Source: Phycisphaeraceae bacterium
Lineage (GTDB): Bacteria > Planctomycetota > Phycisphaerae > Phycisphaerales > Phycisphaeraceae
Length of the DNA stretch: 64,000 bases
Assembly: GCA_028277745.1 (NCBI GenBank)
Contig: JANQFR010000072.1
Coordinates: forward strand, 1 to 64,000
Direction: 5' to 3'
The first letter of the stretch is position 1; every line of letters begins with the position of its first letter. A program made the position numbers and the translations under genes. Below the pieces are notes generated by a model. The model did not search any database. It saw only the letters and a program-made list of their open reading frames with translations, and was not told the origin of the DNA. This document shows, in pieces, positions 10,205-18,096 of this stretch.

Positions 10205-10477
10205 TCAATCGGAGGGCGGGTCCGACTTCTTGCGTTCCATGAGATACCGGGCGACCGACAGCAGCCCGGCGAACTTGAACCTGGGGTCGATGTAGTGTTC
10301 GATCACGTAGAAGGCGAAATAGTAGGCCCGGGCGAACGCCCACACCGCCACGGCCAGCAGCAGGGCGGCGGTCAGGGTCGGGTGAAGCACGATCAGGCCG
10401 ACGGACGCGACGACGCCCAGCAGCAGGAAGAGCGCCGCCTTGAGGTAGAGCAGTTTGGGGTTGCGGATGTCGCCCAT
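10205..10477 (-). CDS. Small two-helix membrane protein
   Basis: 90 residues with two hydrophobic segments (LYLKAALFLLLGVVASVGLIVL and LTAALLLAVAVWAFARAYYFAFYV). A soluble basic C-terminus follows (YIDPRFKFAGLLSVARYLMERKKSDPPSD). The layout is like small planctomycete membrane proteins of unknown role. A GGGAG ribosome site precedes the ATG. It lies 16 bp downstream of the RuBisCO-like gene on the same strand and may be the last gene of that operon. No function is claimed. Confidence 0.75.
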   Translation of the reverse strand: MGDIRNPKLLYLKAALFLLLGVVASVGLIVLHPTLTAALLLAVAVWAFARAYYFAFYVIEHYIDPRFKFAGLLSVARYLMERKKSDPPSD

Positions 10478-10493: not shown

Positions 10494-12077
10494 TCACGGT
10501 GCGGTCGGCCGGTCGCGGTCGCGGTCGACGATGCAGAAGAAGCCGAACGGTTCGGCGTCGTCGCTGGCGGCGTTGCGGAGCTGGTGGACGCGCATCGGGG
10601 GCACGTAGGCGATGTCCATGGGCTCGAGGGTGTGGCGGCCGTCGCCGTTGATCAGCACGCCCCGGCCGCGCACGGCGATGACGGCGTGGATGTGGGCGTG
10701 CTTCTCGAGGCTCGAATGCCCGCCGGGGCCGATCTCGAAGTAGCGCACGTCGAACGCCATGGGCTCGTCGTTTTTCCCCAGCAGCTCGTGGCGGATGACA
10801 TCTTTGAACGGCAGGACGTCGCCCGCGTCGGAGGACTTGTAATCGCCAGGCATGCGGCCGGCCCAGGTGAAGTTGTCGAACGCGAGGTGTTCGATGACGA
10901 CGCCGCGGCCCGCGTCCGGCAGCTCGCAGGCGCCGGCGGGCGTCGCGGCCGGTTCGGCGAGGCGCTCATCGAAATGCTCCCGGATCGCGTCGGCGAACAC
11001 GCGGGTCGACGCGGCCAGGTCGTCGCTGTGGCTGAGCAGGGCCCCGCCGATGAGCAGGACCGCGTCCGCACCGAAGCGTTCGCACATGTCGGGGACGTTG
11101 GCCAGCTTCATGCCGCCCGAGGGAGCGCCGAGGCCGGGTTTGAGCGCGCCCAGGGGCGCGGCCATGGCGGCGTTGATGTCGGCGCATTCCCGGTGCGTGA
11201 ACCCGAAGCGGCCGCCCGCGTTGGGGTAGATGGTCACGTCGGCCCCGGCCAGCCGGAAGAACGTGCCCAGCAGCACGGCGGGGGTAATGCCGTGGGCGCG
11301 GTCGTGGAAGAACGTGCCCGCTGCCGTGGGGTGGGCCATCACCAGCAGGCCGTAGGTCTCGGCCGCGTGCCGGACCGCGTCCAGCCCGACGAGCATGGGC
11401 GAGATGAGGATGCCGCGGACGCCCAGCCGGACCACCGCTTCGAGGTGGGCGTCGAGCTCATTGAAGCGGGCGCAGACGTTCGGCAGGTAGAGGCAGCGTC
11501 GGCCGGTCTGCGCGTTGACGCGCTCCACGGCCTCATGGCACGCGGCGATGCGTTTTTGGAAAGCGTCCAGCGAGTCGTCGACGAGGTTGTGGTCGTCCTT
11601 GACCAGGTCGCCTCCGCCGCGGGCGAAATCGCCGGCGATCCGGGCGAAGGTCGCCACCGACGAGCCGCGGGGCTTGATCGCGGTCGCCAGGAGCGGGCGG
11701 CCGTGGACCCCGACGAGGTCGCGCAGGCCCGCGGCGCCGTGGTTCGGCCCCTTGAAATGGGAAAGGAACGCGTCGGGGAAGTCGACGTGTTCGAGTCGGA
11801 TGTTGTTCTTGAGCGAGATATTGCCGTAGAGCAGGTTGAGCAGCTGCGGCAGCTGATGGTTGGCGAGGGCGGGGTTGTAGTCGATGGCGACGTGGAACGC
11901 GTCGTCGCCGTCGGGGGTGATGTCCGCGACTTGGCCGACGATATGGTCCCGGATGGCCGGGTCGGTGACGATGGCGTCGGGGACCTCGACGGTCTGTTCG
12001 AGGGCGATGCCCCGAGCCTGGGCCTCGATCTCGTCGGCAGGACAGGCGATGCGGTAACGGGCGCGGAGAGCGATCAT
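10494..12077 (-). CDS. RuBisCO-like protein fused to a C-terminal cupin
   Basis: 527 residues. Residues about 1-395 follow the RuBisCO large-subunit fold: an N-terminal alpha/beta domain, then the barrel with LLATAIKPRG (Lys135, equivalent to catalytic Lys175) and LVKDDHN (Lys160 and Asp162 equivalent to Lys201 and Asp203). The glutamate matching the metal ligand Glu204 is His163. The loop-6 region (APSGGMKLANVPDM, GGALLSHSDD) lacks an obvious GKLEG-type lysine. It is therefore a form IV RuBisCO-like protein, probably an enolase or isomerase rather than a carboxylase. Residues about 400-527 form a cupin with HxH (EKHAHIHAV) and a second motif PPMRVHQLRN. The fusion suggests one enzyme acting on successive forms of a sugar-acid substrate. 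Inference only for substrate. Confidence 0.85.
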   Translation of the reverse strand: MIALRARYRIACPADEIEAQARGIALEQTVEVPDAIVTDPAIRDHIVGQVADITPDGDDAFHVAIDYNPALANHQLPQLLNLLYGNISLKNNIRLEHVDFPDAFLSHFKGPNHGAAGLRDLVGVHGRPLLATAIKPRGSSVATFARIAGDFARGGGDLVKDDHNLVDDSLDAFQKRIAACHEAVERVNAQTGRRCLYLPNVCARFNELDAHLEAVVRLGVRGILISPMLVGLDAVRHAAETYGLLVMAHPTAAGTFFHDRAHGITPAVLLGTFFRLAGADVTIYPNAGGRFGFTHRECADINAAMAAPLGALKPGLGAPSGGMKLANVPDMCERFGADAVLLIGGALLSHSDDLAASTRVFADAIREHFDERLAEPAATPAGACELPDAGRGVVIEHLAFDNFTWAGRMPGDYKSSDAGDVLPFKDVIRHELLGKNDEPMAFDVRYFEIGPGGHSSLEKHAHIHAVIAVRGRGVLINGDGRHTLEPMDIAYVPPMRVHQLRNAASDDAEPFGFFCIVDRDRDRPTAP

Positions 12078-12090
12078 CGGGGAGAAGGGT

Positions 12091-12855
12091 TTACTCGCCG
12101 GGGTTGGCGGCGCTGGCCTGTTGGGAGGGCGGGGTCGGCGGCGGGGCGGGGTTCATCTGGCTGACCGCGAACGCGACATACGCCGCGGCGCCCAGCGCGA
12201 TGACGGCCACCACCCAACTCACGACGGTCATGGCCGTCATCTGCCGGTGCGTGCGTTTGAACATCTCCCGGGTTTGCTCGGCGCCTTCGAGGTAGGCCTG
12301 CCGCGTCGCCTCGTTGGCGCGGGTGACGTCGCCCATGGTGGTGTTGAGACCGTTGAGGGCGGTGCGCATCTCCCGGCTCGACTCGTTCTGGGCGCTGAGC
12401 TGCTGCTTGAGGTGCGTCGACACCTGCTTCTGCGATTCGGTCGCGGTCGCCAGGGCCGAGGAGAGCTTGTCGGTGGTGACGCGTTGGGATTCGAGGTTGG
12501 TCTGGATGCCTTCGAGAATCTTCGTCTGGTTCGCCGCCGTCTCGGGCATGGACTTGAGCAGTTCGGGCAGCCCCTGCATGACCTGCAGCATCTTGTCCGC
12601 CCGCTGCGACTGCTCGTCCATGTGCGATCGGACAGCCTGGAGGGTGTCGACGACCTCGTTGTAGCCCTTTTTGATCTGGAGCAGCGACGCCTCGCGTCGG
12701 GCCGTCGCCACCTCGATCGCCCCGCGGTTGCGGCCGAAAAGGTTACCCAGGCGCTGCCGCAGTGTTTTCGGCTTATCCGGCGTCAATTCGACGTCTTCGA
12801 CACGCGTGGCGACCTGTTCGGCGGCGGCGGGGGTCTCGTTCATGGGCTGCTCCAT
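12091..12855 (-). CDS. C-terminally anchored coiled-coil protein
   Basis: 254 residues. The N-terminal region is polar and then basic (KTLRQRLGNLFGRNRG). A long helical coiled coil occupies about residues 50-205 (Gln/Thr/Leu-rich, resembling methyl-accepting or tail-fibre helices). One transmembrane helix follows at about 208-232 (MTAMTVVSWVVAVIALGAAAYVAFAV), with a Pro/Ala-rich tail. A GGAGGG ribosome site is directly upstream. It is 13 bp upstream of the RuBisCO-like gene on the same strand. The function is not recognised; topology suggests a cytoplasmic rod anchored by its C-terminus. Confidence 0.75.
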   Translation of the reverse strand: MEQPMNETPAAAEQVATRVEDVELTPDKPKTLRQRLGNLFGRNRGAIEVATARREASLLQIKKGYNEVVDTLQAVRSHMDEQSQRADKMLQVMQGLPELLKSMPETAANQTKILEGIQTNLESQRVTTDKLSSALATATESQKQVSTHLKQQLSAQNESSREMRTALNGLNTTMGDVTRANEATRQAYLEGAEQTREMFKRTHRQMTAMTVVSWVVAVIALGAAAYVAFAVSQMNPAPPPTPPSQQASAANPGE

Positions 12856-14725: not shown

Positions 14726-15850
14726 CTACCTCGGGTCGGCTTCGTGCTCCGCGGCGGCGGCGAGGCGGAGGGACGTGAAGCCGTTGGCGTCGCTGACCCG
14801 CCGGGGGTGGGCCGGGTCGGCGATGGCCTGGAGCTGGTCCGCCAGCAGCCCGCGCAGGACGTGGCCGTACAGGGCGGGCTTGTCCATGCCCACGTCGCCG
14901 GCGAGCGTGTACCGGCCGTCGACCTCGTAGTGCTTGTGTCGGCTGTAGACCTTGCGTTCGTCGCCGGTGTAGGAGGCGGTCTGGGTCACCTTCGCCGCGG
15001 GGAGGATGGCTTGGAGCCGTTCGAGGGTGGCGTGGTCCGCCAGGGCGTCGATCTCGATGGCGGTGGGGACCCACTCGAAGAGCCGGATCGCGCCGCGTTC
15101 GCAGAGGATCCGCATCTCCTGGCGGTCCATCCGCTCGGCCTGGGTGAAGCCGTGGTAGAAATTGACCAGCACGCGGTCGTCGCCGTAGCGGGCGGTGCAG
15201 TGGACCTGTTCGATCAGCCCGGGGTTGCCGGGGCGGCCGGCCTGCTGAGCGGCGACCACCTCGCCCTCGCCGAGCCACCACGCGAAGAGGTCGAAGAAGT
15301 GGACGCCGTGCTCGATGAAGATCCCGCCGGATTTGGACTTGTCCCAGAACCAGTGGTCGGGTCCCAGCGGCTCATCCTTGGCGTAGTTCTCGAAGAAGCC
15401 GTGCAGCGGCTCGCCCAGCAGTTTCTCGTCCAGGATGGTCTTGACCGCTTCGCACAGCGGGTCGTAGCGCATGATGAGGTTGACGGCCAGGAGGCGCTGC
15501 TTGGCGCGGGCGAGTTGGATCATCGCGTCGGCATCGGCGAGGTCGACCGCCAGGGGCTTCTCGCAGAGCACGTGCTTGCCCGCCTCCACGGCCTGGATGA
15601 CCAGCGGGGCGTGCGTGGTCGGCGGGGTGGCGATGTGCACGAGGTCGACCTCGTCGTGCTGCAGCAGGTCGTCCACCGAATCGCAGGCGATCAGGCCGAA
15701 GTCCCGCGCCACCGCGCGGGCCGCGTCGGCGTTGACGTCCGCGACCGCGGCCAGCCGCAGGCCGTCGAGGGCCGCGTATTGCTCCAGGCAGAACCGCCCG
15801 AACGCCCCGGCGCCGACCAGCCCGTAACCGATCGGTTGGCCTTCACTCAT
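14726..15850 (-). CDS. Gfo/Idh/MocA family oxidoreductase
   Basis: 374 residues, NAD(P)-dependent sugar dehydrogenase family. The Rossmann motif GLVGAGAFGRFCLEQ is at residues 10-24, followed by VDLVHIATPPTTHAPLVIQA and the conserved CEKPLAVDLADAD (Glu-Lys-Pro, EKP motif). The C-terminal substrate domain has GGIFIEHGVHFFDLFAWWLG. It overlaps the upstream fused gene by four bases (ATGA), so the two are translationally coupled. The adjacent gene carries a paralogous domain with the same GGIFIEHGVHFFDL stretch, which indicates tandem duplication. Substrate unknown. Confidence 0.92.
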   Translation of the reverse strand: MSEGQPIGYGLVGAGAFGRFCLEQYAALDGLRLAAVADVNADAARAVARDFGLIACDSVDDLLQHDEVDLVHIATPPTTHAPLVIQAVEAGKHVLCEKPLAVDLADADAMIQLARAKQRLLAVNLIMRYDPLCEAVKTILDEKLLGEPLHGFFENYAKDEPLGPDHWFWDKSKSGGIFIEHGVHFFDLFAWWLGEGEVVAAQQAGRPGNPGLIEQVHCTARYGDDRVLVNFYHGFTQAERMDRQEMRILCERGAIRLFEWVPTAIEIDALADHATLERLQAILPAAKVTQTASYTGDERKVYSRHKHYEVDGRYTLAGDVGMDKPALYGHVLRGLLADQLQAIADPAHPRRVSDANGFTSLRLAAAAEHEADPR

Positions 15851-18096
15851 GGCGTCGCCCCCCGTGCGATCCGATCCGCCTCCCGCGCCAGCGCCAGCGC
15901 CGCCCGCCCATCCTGCGCCGTGACCCGCACCGGATGCCGCCGGTCACGCACCCATTCGAGCATGTCCTCCATCAACGCGGCGACCGCCCGGCGGTAGATC
16001 GTCTGTTTGTCCGCCGTGTCCCGCCAGGTGATGCGGACCTCCCGGTCGACCGGCTCGACCCGGCCCCGCCGCGACGCGGTTTCGCCGTCCAAACGACGAA
16101 CCACCTCAATCTCGGCGTCGGGCAGGATTATCGCGATCTGTTCGGCCTGCGGCTCATTGAGCACGGCCCGGATCGACAGCTCGGCCGCAACCCAGCCTTC
16201 GACCGTCAACTCGCCCCGCTCGAAGGCCAGGCGGAAGTCCTGCCGATCGAGGTGGGGCGACTGGTGGAACCCGTGGTAAAACGCCACGGTGGTCTGCGGC
16301 CCGTACCGCAGCGTGGCGCCGACCTGGTCGATGATCTGGTCCTCCGTGTCGGGCCGACGCAGGCGGAACGCATCGACCACGGTCGCTTCGCCCAGCCAGG
16401 AGCGGACCAAATCGAAGAAGTGGACGCCGTGCTCGATGAAGATCCCGCCGGAGACGGCCTCGTCCCAGAACCAGTGCCCGGGGGGCAGGCCGCTGTCGCC
16501 GGCGAGGTTGGTGAACACCCCGCGGAGCGGCGCGCCCAGCGCGTTGGATTCGATGAGCCGGGTGATCGCCCGGGCGAGCGGGCCGTGGCGCATGACGAAG
16601 TTCACGCCCAGACGCAGGTCGCGCTCGGCGGCGGCGTCGATCATCCGCTGGGCGTCCGCGCCCGTGGTCGCGATCGGCTTCTCGCAGAGCACGTGCTTGC
16701 CCGCCCGCAGCGCCGCGATCGCCTGCTCGGCGTGTTGCGCCGGCGTGGACGCGATGTGCACCAGTTGAACGTTGGGGTCTTCGACCAGGTCCTGCAGCGC
16801 CTCGTAAGCGGTCAGCCCGTGCTGCTCCGCAAACGTCCGGGCCCGCTGCGGCGTGCGGTTCCAGACCGCCGCGGGCCGCAGGCCCTCGATCGGGCGGTAG
16901 GCGTCGAGGCAGAAATCGGCGAACTTGCTGGCGCCCACCACCGCATAGCCGATCGCGCCCGGCGGGGCGGCGGTCACCCGGCCCAGGTTCTCCTCGCGGT
17001 ACAGGTGCAGCTCCAGCACGCTCAGCAGGTACGCCAGGGTCGACTCGGCGCCCTGGTTGCGGTTCACCCCGTCGGGCTCGAGCCCGTCCTGGCACCCGCC
17101 GGTTTCCTCGTCGTAGAGCGAGAGCCCGAGGTCGTTGCGGCCGCGGAACCACTCGAAGCAGACCCAGGCATGGTCTTCCCAGGCCTTGTCGCCGGTCTGC
17201 CGGGCGGCGGTGAGGCAGGCGTGGACCATGGCGTAAGCCTCGAGCGGCTGCTGGTCGAACCGGGCCCGGGGCTTGCCGCGCTGCAGCCAGCCGTTGTTGC
17301 CGATGATCGACAGCCGGCCGTCCTCGGCGGTCTGCATCTTGAGGAGCCATTTCAGGCTCGTGAGGCCGGCGTCGATCATGTCGGCGCGGCCCAGCGCCTG
17401 GCCGCCGACCAGCATGGCGTGGCAGAGCTTGGCGTTGTCGTAGGTGACCACGTCCTCCCACCAGGGCCAGTCCTCGGTGGCGTGCTCGGAATACCCCGTC
17501 GCCAGCCGGTCGGCGCACCGCTCGAACAGTTCACGCGCCCGGGCGTGATCGGGCTTGAACTGCAGCAGCTCGTGAAGGCCGATCAAGGCGAAGGCGTGCG
17601 AGCGGAGAAACGCGAACCGCTCGACCGCCTCCATGCCTTTGTTGATCAGGTCATACGCCAGCTCGCGGGTGCTGTCCCGCGGGGCGTGGTTGACCGCCAG
17701 CCCCAGGGCCCAGATGGTGCGGGCCTGGCTGTCCTGGCTGCCTTCGTCTTCGAGCCAATGGCGGTCGTAGCCCATGAAGTTGCGGAAGGCGCGGGCGTCG
17801 TCGTTCCACGCGTAGGCGAGGAACGTGACGTACCGGTTGAGCGGCAGGGCTTCGCCGTCGGCGCCGCGCAGGCGTTGATGCAGCAGCGCGGCGATGAGGG
17901 CGCGGGCGTTGTCGTCGATGCAGTAGCCGTGATTCGGGTCGGGCGTGCCGTAGACCGCGTGCTGGAAGATGCCGGTGTCGTCGGAGAGGCGCAGGGTCTG
18001 GCGCAGGTCGATCTGCGGGAACGGCTCCCAGGGCGTGTGGCGGGGCGGTGGGGCGGTGGGGTGTGGCGCGGCCTCGCCGATCGCGGCGTCATCCAT
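15847..18096 (-). CDS. Fusion: glycosidase-like helical domain + Gfo/Idh/MocA oxidoreductase
   Basis: 749 residues. Residues about 20-375 look like an (alpha/alpha)6-type carbohydrate-active domain (DDTGIFQHAVYGTPDPNHG, YCIDDNARALIAAL, WWEDVVTYDNAKLCHAML, QQPLEAYAMVHACLTAAR, YDEETGGCQDGLEPDGVN). This kind of module accompanies mannose-active enzymes and glycosyltransferases; I cannot name the exact family. Residues about 385-749 are a full oxidoreductase: YAVVGASKFADF, HIASTPAQHAEQAI, CEKPIATTGADAQ, GGIFIEHGVHFFDLVRSWLG. The join is in frame without sign of an error. Probably it processes and oxidises a glycan-derived sugar in one polypeptide. Confidence 0.85.
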   Translation of the reverse strand: MDDAAIGEAAPHPTAPPPRHTPWEPFPQIDLRQTLRLSDDTGIFQHAVYGTPDPNHGYCIDDNARALIAALLHQRLRGADGEALPLNRYVTFLAYAWNDDARAFRNFMGYDRHWLEDEGSQDSQARTIWALGLAVNHAPRDSTRELAYDLINKGMEAVERFAFLRSHAFALIGLHELLQFKPDHARARELFERCADRLATGYSEHATEDWPWWEDVVTYDNAKLCHAMLVGGQALGRADMIDAGLTSLKWLLKMQTAEDGRLSIIGNNGWLQRGKPRARFDQQPLEAYAMVHACLTAARQTGDKAWEDHAWVCFEWFRGRNDLGLSLYDEETGGCQDGLEPDGVNRNQGAESTLAYLLSVLELHLYREENLGRVTAAPPGAIGYAVVGASKFADFCLDAYRPIEGLRPAAVWNRTPQRARTFAEQHGLTAYEALQDLVEDPNVQLVHIASTPAQHAEQAIAALRAGKHVLCEKPIATTGADAQRMIDAAAERDLRLGVNFVMRHGPLARAITRLIESNALGAPLRGVFTNLAGDSGLPPGHWFWDEAVSGGIFIEHGVHFFDLVRSWLGEATVVDAFRLRRPDTEDQIIDQVGATLRYGPQTTVAFYHGFHQSPHLDRQDFRLAFERGELTVEGWVAAELSIRAVLNEPQAEQIAIILPDAEIEVVRRLDGETASRRGRVEPVDREVRITWRDTADKQTIYRRAVAALMEDMLEWVRDRRHPVRVTAQDGRAALALAREADRIARGATP

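Follow-up and report, generated by a model that had tools for sequence, protein, structure and literature searches.

A RuBisCO-like protein fused to a cupin as a predicted bifunctional enzyme of the MTA-isoprenoid shunt

Introduction

A RuBisCO-like protein (RLP) and a cupin catalyse consecutive steps of the MTA-isoprenoid shunt, a pathway whose logic has been laid out in PMC5893883, PMC4958253 and PMC6302742. Rhodopseudomonas palustris carries two RLPs, one of which, RLP1, acts in vivo as a 5-methylthioribulose-1-phosphate (MTRu-1P) 1,3-isomerase, as demonstrated by gene deletion and labelled metabolites (PMC5893883). The cupin step is known from Rru_A2000, a cupin-type methylthioxylulose-5-phosphate sulfurylase (PMC4958253), and the thiol used is expected to differ among organisms (PMC6302742). 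The papers considered here treat the RLP and the cupin as separate proteins or leave related RLPs without a function (PMC5893883, PMC6302742, PMC10663253, PMC4958253, PMC3655542). A precedent for fused methionine-salvage enzymes is MtnBD of Tetrahymena (PMC3698126), although this eukaryotic protein differs from the one described here in its enzymes and in its branch of the salvage pathway.

Here we analyse a gene within a 64,000-nt stretch of DNA (hereafter the window; contig JANQFR010000072.1, assembly GCA_028277745.1) from a Phycisphaeraceae bacterium, in which an RLP and a cupin form a single polypeptide. We predict, with a probability of roughly 0.85, that this polypeptide is a bifunctional enzyme of the MTA-isoprenoid shunt, combining the RLP isomerase with the cupin methylsulfurylase.

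Results

The fusion gene (10494..12077, minus strand) is one open reading frame encoding 527 amino acids, with its ATG at 12077 and its stop at 10494. Pfam places RuBisCO_large at residues 117-365 (E 2.4e-26) and Cupin_2 at residues 446-508 (E 1e-8), in agreement with the first-pass annotation, which had described an RLP fused to a C-terminal metal-type cupin. The AlphaFold2 model, computed from 33 fused homologues (mean pLDDT 90), consists of an RLP domain (residues 1-370; 10968..12077, minus strand) and a cupin domain (residues 403-527; 10497..10871, minus strand). The linker that joins them (residues 371-402; 10872..10967, minus strand) appears flexible, as residues 380-391 have a pLDDT under 50 and its length differs between fused homologues. 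The same single reading frame recurs in 32 further loci, of which 30 belong to named GTDB genomes, and this rules out an artefact of assembly or frame. Two proteins without a Pfam match, encoded on the same strand at 12091-12855 and 10205-10477, border the fusion gene within 20 bases and may be co-transcribed with it.

The closest solved structure to the RLP half is 3QFW, an R. palustris RLP, both by phmmer (E 1.7e-70) and by Foldseek. VIA-align superposes the two over 346 residues with an rmsd of 1.5 and a Z of 47.1 (runner-up, 45.5), at 38% sequence identity. Because R. palustris has two RLPs and the entry title of 2QYG names it as RLP2, we infer that 3QFW is RLP1. The first-pass reading of the active site was borne out by the residue comparison, in which K135, K160 and D162 are invariant and H163 occupies the position of the RuBisCO metal ligand E204 in the alignment with 2OEK (MtnW) and 3QFW. 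The same alignment contains no loop-6 lysine in the RLP half, as had also been read; Arg290 is invariant in this region, which mostly has Lys in the outgroup of RuBisCO and other RLPs. What had been taken for an oddity, namely His163, turns out to be ordinary for the group. It belongs to a KDDH motif, which we read off 3QFW and its relatives rather than from a published definition, and which is present in 3QFW itself, in 33/33 split homologues and in 32 of the 33 fused ones, while the RuBisCO-type Glu is confined in our residue table to the outgroup and MtnW. A bona fide RuBisCO was thus rejected: the alignment, which might have restored true RuBisCO residues, left His163 in place of the E204 ligand and no lysine in loop 6.

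The RLP half instead has the features of the DeepYkr group (Rru_A1998, R. palustris RLP1, 3QFW), that is, the KDDH motif, the catalytic lysines, no RuBisCO E204 and a fold closest to 3QFW. It shares with that group N86, K135, K160, D162, H249 and R290, which together with H163 are its key residues in the residue table, as well as the gene partnership with a cupin. In the tree, the window RLP and 3QFW fall into one clade of 85 rows (SH-aLRT 99), apart from MtnW and the other RuBisCO and RLP types. Within this clade, however, they occupy different branches, and the window RLP differs further from the described DeepYkr proteins in being fused to its cupin.

As the RLP half has its top NCBIfam match in the MtnW family, one could envisage that this half is an MtnW-type 2,3-diketo-5-methylthiopentyl-1-phosphate enolase and the cupin an acireductone dioxygenase (ARD), making the fusion part of O2-dependent methionine salvage. 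Both are salvage steps and a cupin is involved, but the MtnW scores lie far under the family cut-offs (210.8 versus 409; 161.9 versus 513.6). In addition, Lys98 of the G. kaustophilus MtnW, which we take to be its general base, is replaced by Asn86 here and by Asn in all close relatives compared. Asn86 and scores short of the family cut-offs indicate that the RLP half is something other than the classical-pathway enolase, and the cupin half matches proteins of the Rru_A2000 type, not ARD. Since the host genome also lacks an ARD match and an MtnB above cut-off, we consider this explanation extremely improbable.

For the cupin half, the closest PDB entries are 3IBM (Hhal_0468), 3JZV (Rru_A2000) and 3KGZ (R. 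palustris), with E values of 2e-23 to 4e-20, and the same three lead the Foldseek search with a separate model of the cupin domain. By VIA-align, 3KGZ (Z 17.1) scores level with DddK, a DMSP lyase (16.9), so that the fold alone leaves the function of the cupin unsettled. The sequence features it shares with the methylsulfurylase group (Rru_A2000 3JZV, 3KGZ and 3IBM) are an extended ExHxHxH motif with a second-motif His, a conserved Cys and a C-terminal RD(R/K)P motif. None of E458, H460, H462, H464, H498 and C515 varies among the 69 cupins compared (33/33 fused, 33/33 split and 3/3 from the PDB). Alignment with TM1459, a manganese cupin, points to E458, H460, H464 and H498 as likely metal ligands; C515 aligns with C106 of TM1459 and might serve as the methylthio acceptor. 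In contrast to the described methylsulfurylases, the window cupin is joined to an RLP and belongs to a distinct clade with E431 (T, I, V or S in split cupins) and F511 (L in split cupins). The first-pass suggestion that the cupin is an isomerase or oxygenase probably does not hold, as it is most likely a thiol-dependent methylsulfurylase.

A related possibility concerns the substrate. Homologues of MtnP and MtnA can be promiscuous toward 5'-deoxy compounds. The substrate might then be 5-deoxyribulose-1-phosphate derived from 5'-deoxyadenosine, whose isomerisation would give DXP directly and leave the cupin to do something else; a promiscuous MtnA-type enzyme has indeed been described (PMC6302742). 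Such a substrate would make a methylsulfurylase-type cupin needless, and yet the metal ligands and the Cys are invariant in every fused copy, which renders this possibility quite unlikely.

To survey the family, GTDB genomes were scanned with a six-sequence alignment and the best 80 loci were taken, which gives no estimate of prevalence. By their reading frames, 30 of these loci are fused, in 33 the RLP gene is immediately succeeded by a cupin gene, and 17 lack a cupin. The first-pass annotation had named split homologues with unrelated neighbours as evidence against its reading; in the cupin-bearing group the opposite is seen, with the cupin gene directly following the RLP gene in at least 33 loci. 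It had also called for a search for the same fusion, which is now found in at least 32 loci besides the window, in about ten phyla; our fused set (n=33) comprises the 30 loci above, the window and two further relatives. Among the matches listed, the carriers include Planctomycetota (with the anammox Scalindua and Brocadiaceae), magnetotactic Nitrospirota lineages, Fibrobacterota, KSB1, Hydrogenedentes, FCPU426, Firestonebacteria, one Desulfuromonas and one Thiotrichales MAG; as most carriers are MAGs, an individual placement may reflect a binning error. In the class of the window, 4 of 397 genomes have the full fusion, all within its own family.

In the cupin tree, the fused sequences cluster together, separately from the split ones (support 100/100). 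In the RLP tree, a single clade of fusions was rejected (AU test, p 4.7e-5). If there was one fusion, the two trees agree provided that some lineages, for which we propose the split Alphaproteobacteria and the solo RLPs of Elusimicrobia, Goldiibacteriota and Firestonebacteria, later re-paired the RLP or shed the cupin; the fusion could also have arisen repeatedly rather than once.

Several loci around the family deserve separate mention. Solo RLPs at L068, L076, L077, L079, L080, L095 and L105, mostly from Elusimicrobia, sit inside the fused RLP clade with no cupin nearby. KDDQ replaces KDDH in seven solo RLPs, which may or may not be these seven. In at least five loci (L111, L099, L087, L110 and L006), members of a sister RLP clade that lacks a cupin come after a transketolase split into two genes. 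At the Anaerosolibacter locus L111:1623-7116 the order is MtnK, MtnA, transketolase N, transketolase C and RLP, suggesting an undescribed route of methylthioribose salvage with transketolase in place of the cupin. The fusion is found in two Scalindua (anammox) genomes, L053 and L049. The RLP scal00245 of Scalindua profunda, reported as a form IV protein of unknown function (PMC3655542), probably belongs to the same family as the fused Scalindua proteins.

The host genome (5.1 Mb, 95.6% complete) contains no second RuBisCO or RLP matching the window protein. It encodes MtnA, the MTA phosphorylase MtnP, Dxs, Dxr, O-acetylhomoserine sulfhydrylase and spermidine synthase, so that MtnP, MtnA, Dxr and a methanethiol-fixing sulfhydrylase, the genes by which we recognise the shunt, are all present. 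ARD (MtnD) was not found in this genome or in three fused relatives of its family; this counts as weak evidence, since nearly all sampled genomes of the family lack ARD whether they carry the fusion or not. Of the class II aldolase family the genome has two proteins, which resemble AraD or are generic and score under the MtnB cut-off. Given a generic aldolase, a DHAP-type shunt may run as a parallel route, and the presence of Dxs implies that the shunt probably serves salvage and is not essential for DXP.

No homologues of MtnA, MtnP, SpeE or MetY were found within the 64-kb window. Neighbours vary between fused loci, no gene emerged as a conserved partner of the fusion when neighbourhoods were clustered, and a shunt gene adjoins it in one case among the loci examined. 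This is KSB1 L033:5032-7575, where spermidine synthase, a source of MTA, lies directly upstream. In two genomes of the same family (G193 C1 and G072 C18), roughly 20 kb separate MtnA from the fused gene. By Pfam, the neighbours in the window include GFO/IDH/MocA oxidoreductases and a xylose-isomerase-like TIM barrel. One such oxidoreductase (15847-18096, minus strand) has no Pfam match in its N-terminal ~370 residues and adjoins a second (14726-15850). These neighbours, along with the separate grouping of the fused cupins, would fit a drift of both domains to another phosphosugar or a sugar-acid substrate. Such neighbours are not constant across fused loci, though, and each half has the active-site residues of its counterpart in the shunt pair, making a drift of this kind very unlikely.

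Discussion

The assignment to the MTA-isoprenoid shunt is favoured by both halves of the protein, as the RLP half is nearest to the R. palustris RLP, with RLP1 an MTRu-1P 1,3-isomerase, and the cupin half is nearest to the group of Rru_A2000, a methylsulfurylase. It is further favoured by the way the pair recurs, in at least 33 loci as neighbouring genes and in at least 33 as one reading frame, by the invariant metal ligands and Cys515, by the complement of pathway genes (MtnA, MtnP, Dxr, sulfhydrylase and spermidine synthase, with neither ARD nor MtnB found) and by the KSB1 gene order. It is weakened by the position of the RLP half outside the validated R. palustris clade at 38% identity, by the E431 and F511 changes that set the fused cupins apart, and by the window itself, in which homologues of the other shunt genes were not found.

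Under this assignment, MTA from polyamine synthesis would be converted to MTRu-1P by MtnP and MtnA, and the RLP half would shift the carbonyl to give 1-methylthioxylulose-5-phosphate. The cupin half, as the predicted 1-methylthioxylulose-5-phosphate methylsulfurylase, would then use a thiol to remove the methylthio group, yielding 1-deoxyxylulose-5-phosphate (DXP) for isoprenoids, and thiol exchange would release methanethiol for methionine resynthesis through the sulfhydrylase. More tentatively, the reactive methylthioxylulose-5-phosphate might be handed from the RLP site across the linker to the cupin site within one assembly, with a thiol other than glutathione, which could support O2-independent methionine salvage linked to isoprenoid synthesis in anaerobes such as the anammox and magnetotactic lineages.

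The first-pass proposal that a form IV RLP and a metal cupin together make up a two-step enzyme, with sulfur metabolism as one option, is upheld insofar as the halves match known consecutive enzymes. Its claim of novelty stands for the fusion, of which a full-text literature search (its scope excluding the primary biochemistry of Erb 2012 and Warlick 2012) found no mention, but not for the activities, already described in Rhodospirillum rubrum and R. palustris, where each has its own enzyme (PMC4958253, PMC5893883). The fusion would thus represent known chemistry in a new and seemingly undescribed architecture across many phyla.

This gives a concrete predicted function to RLPs that had none, such as that of the anammox Scalindua (PMC3655542), and would extend the MTA-isoprenoid shunt from a few described bacteria to many uncultured phyla. 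A single polypeptide also makes both predicted steps, along with possible channelling, accessible to assay. The fusion is, in addition, a candidate for supplying DXP independently of Dxs, a question raised in PMC10663253. For the organisms that carry it, the shunt pair would recycle a toxic sulfur by-product into a terpene building block and reusable methanethiol.
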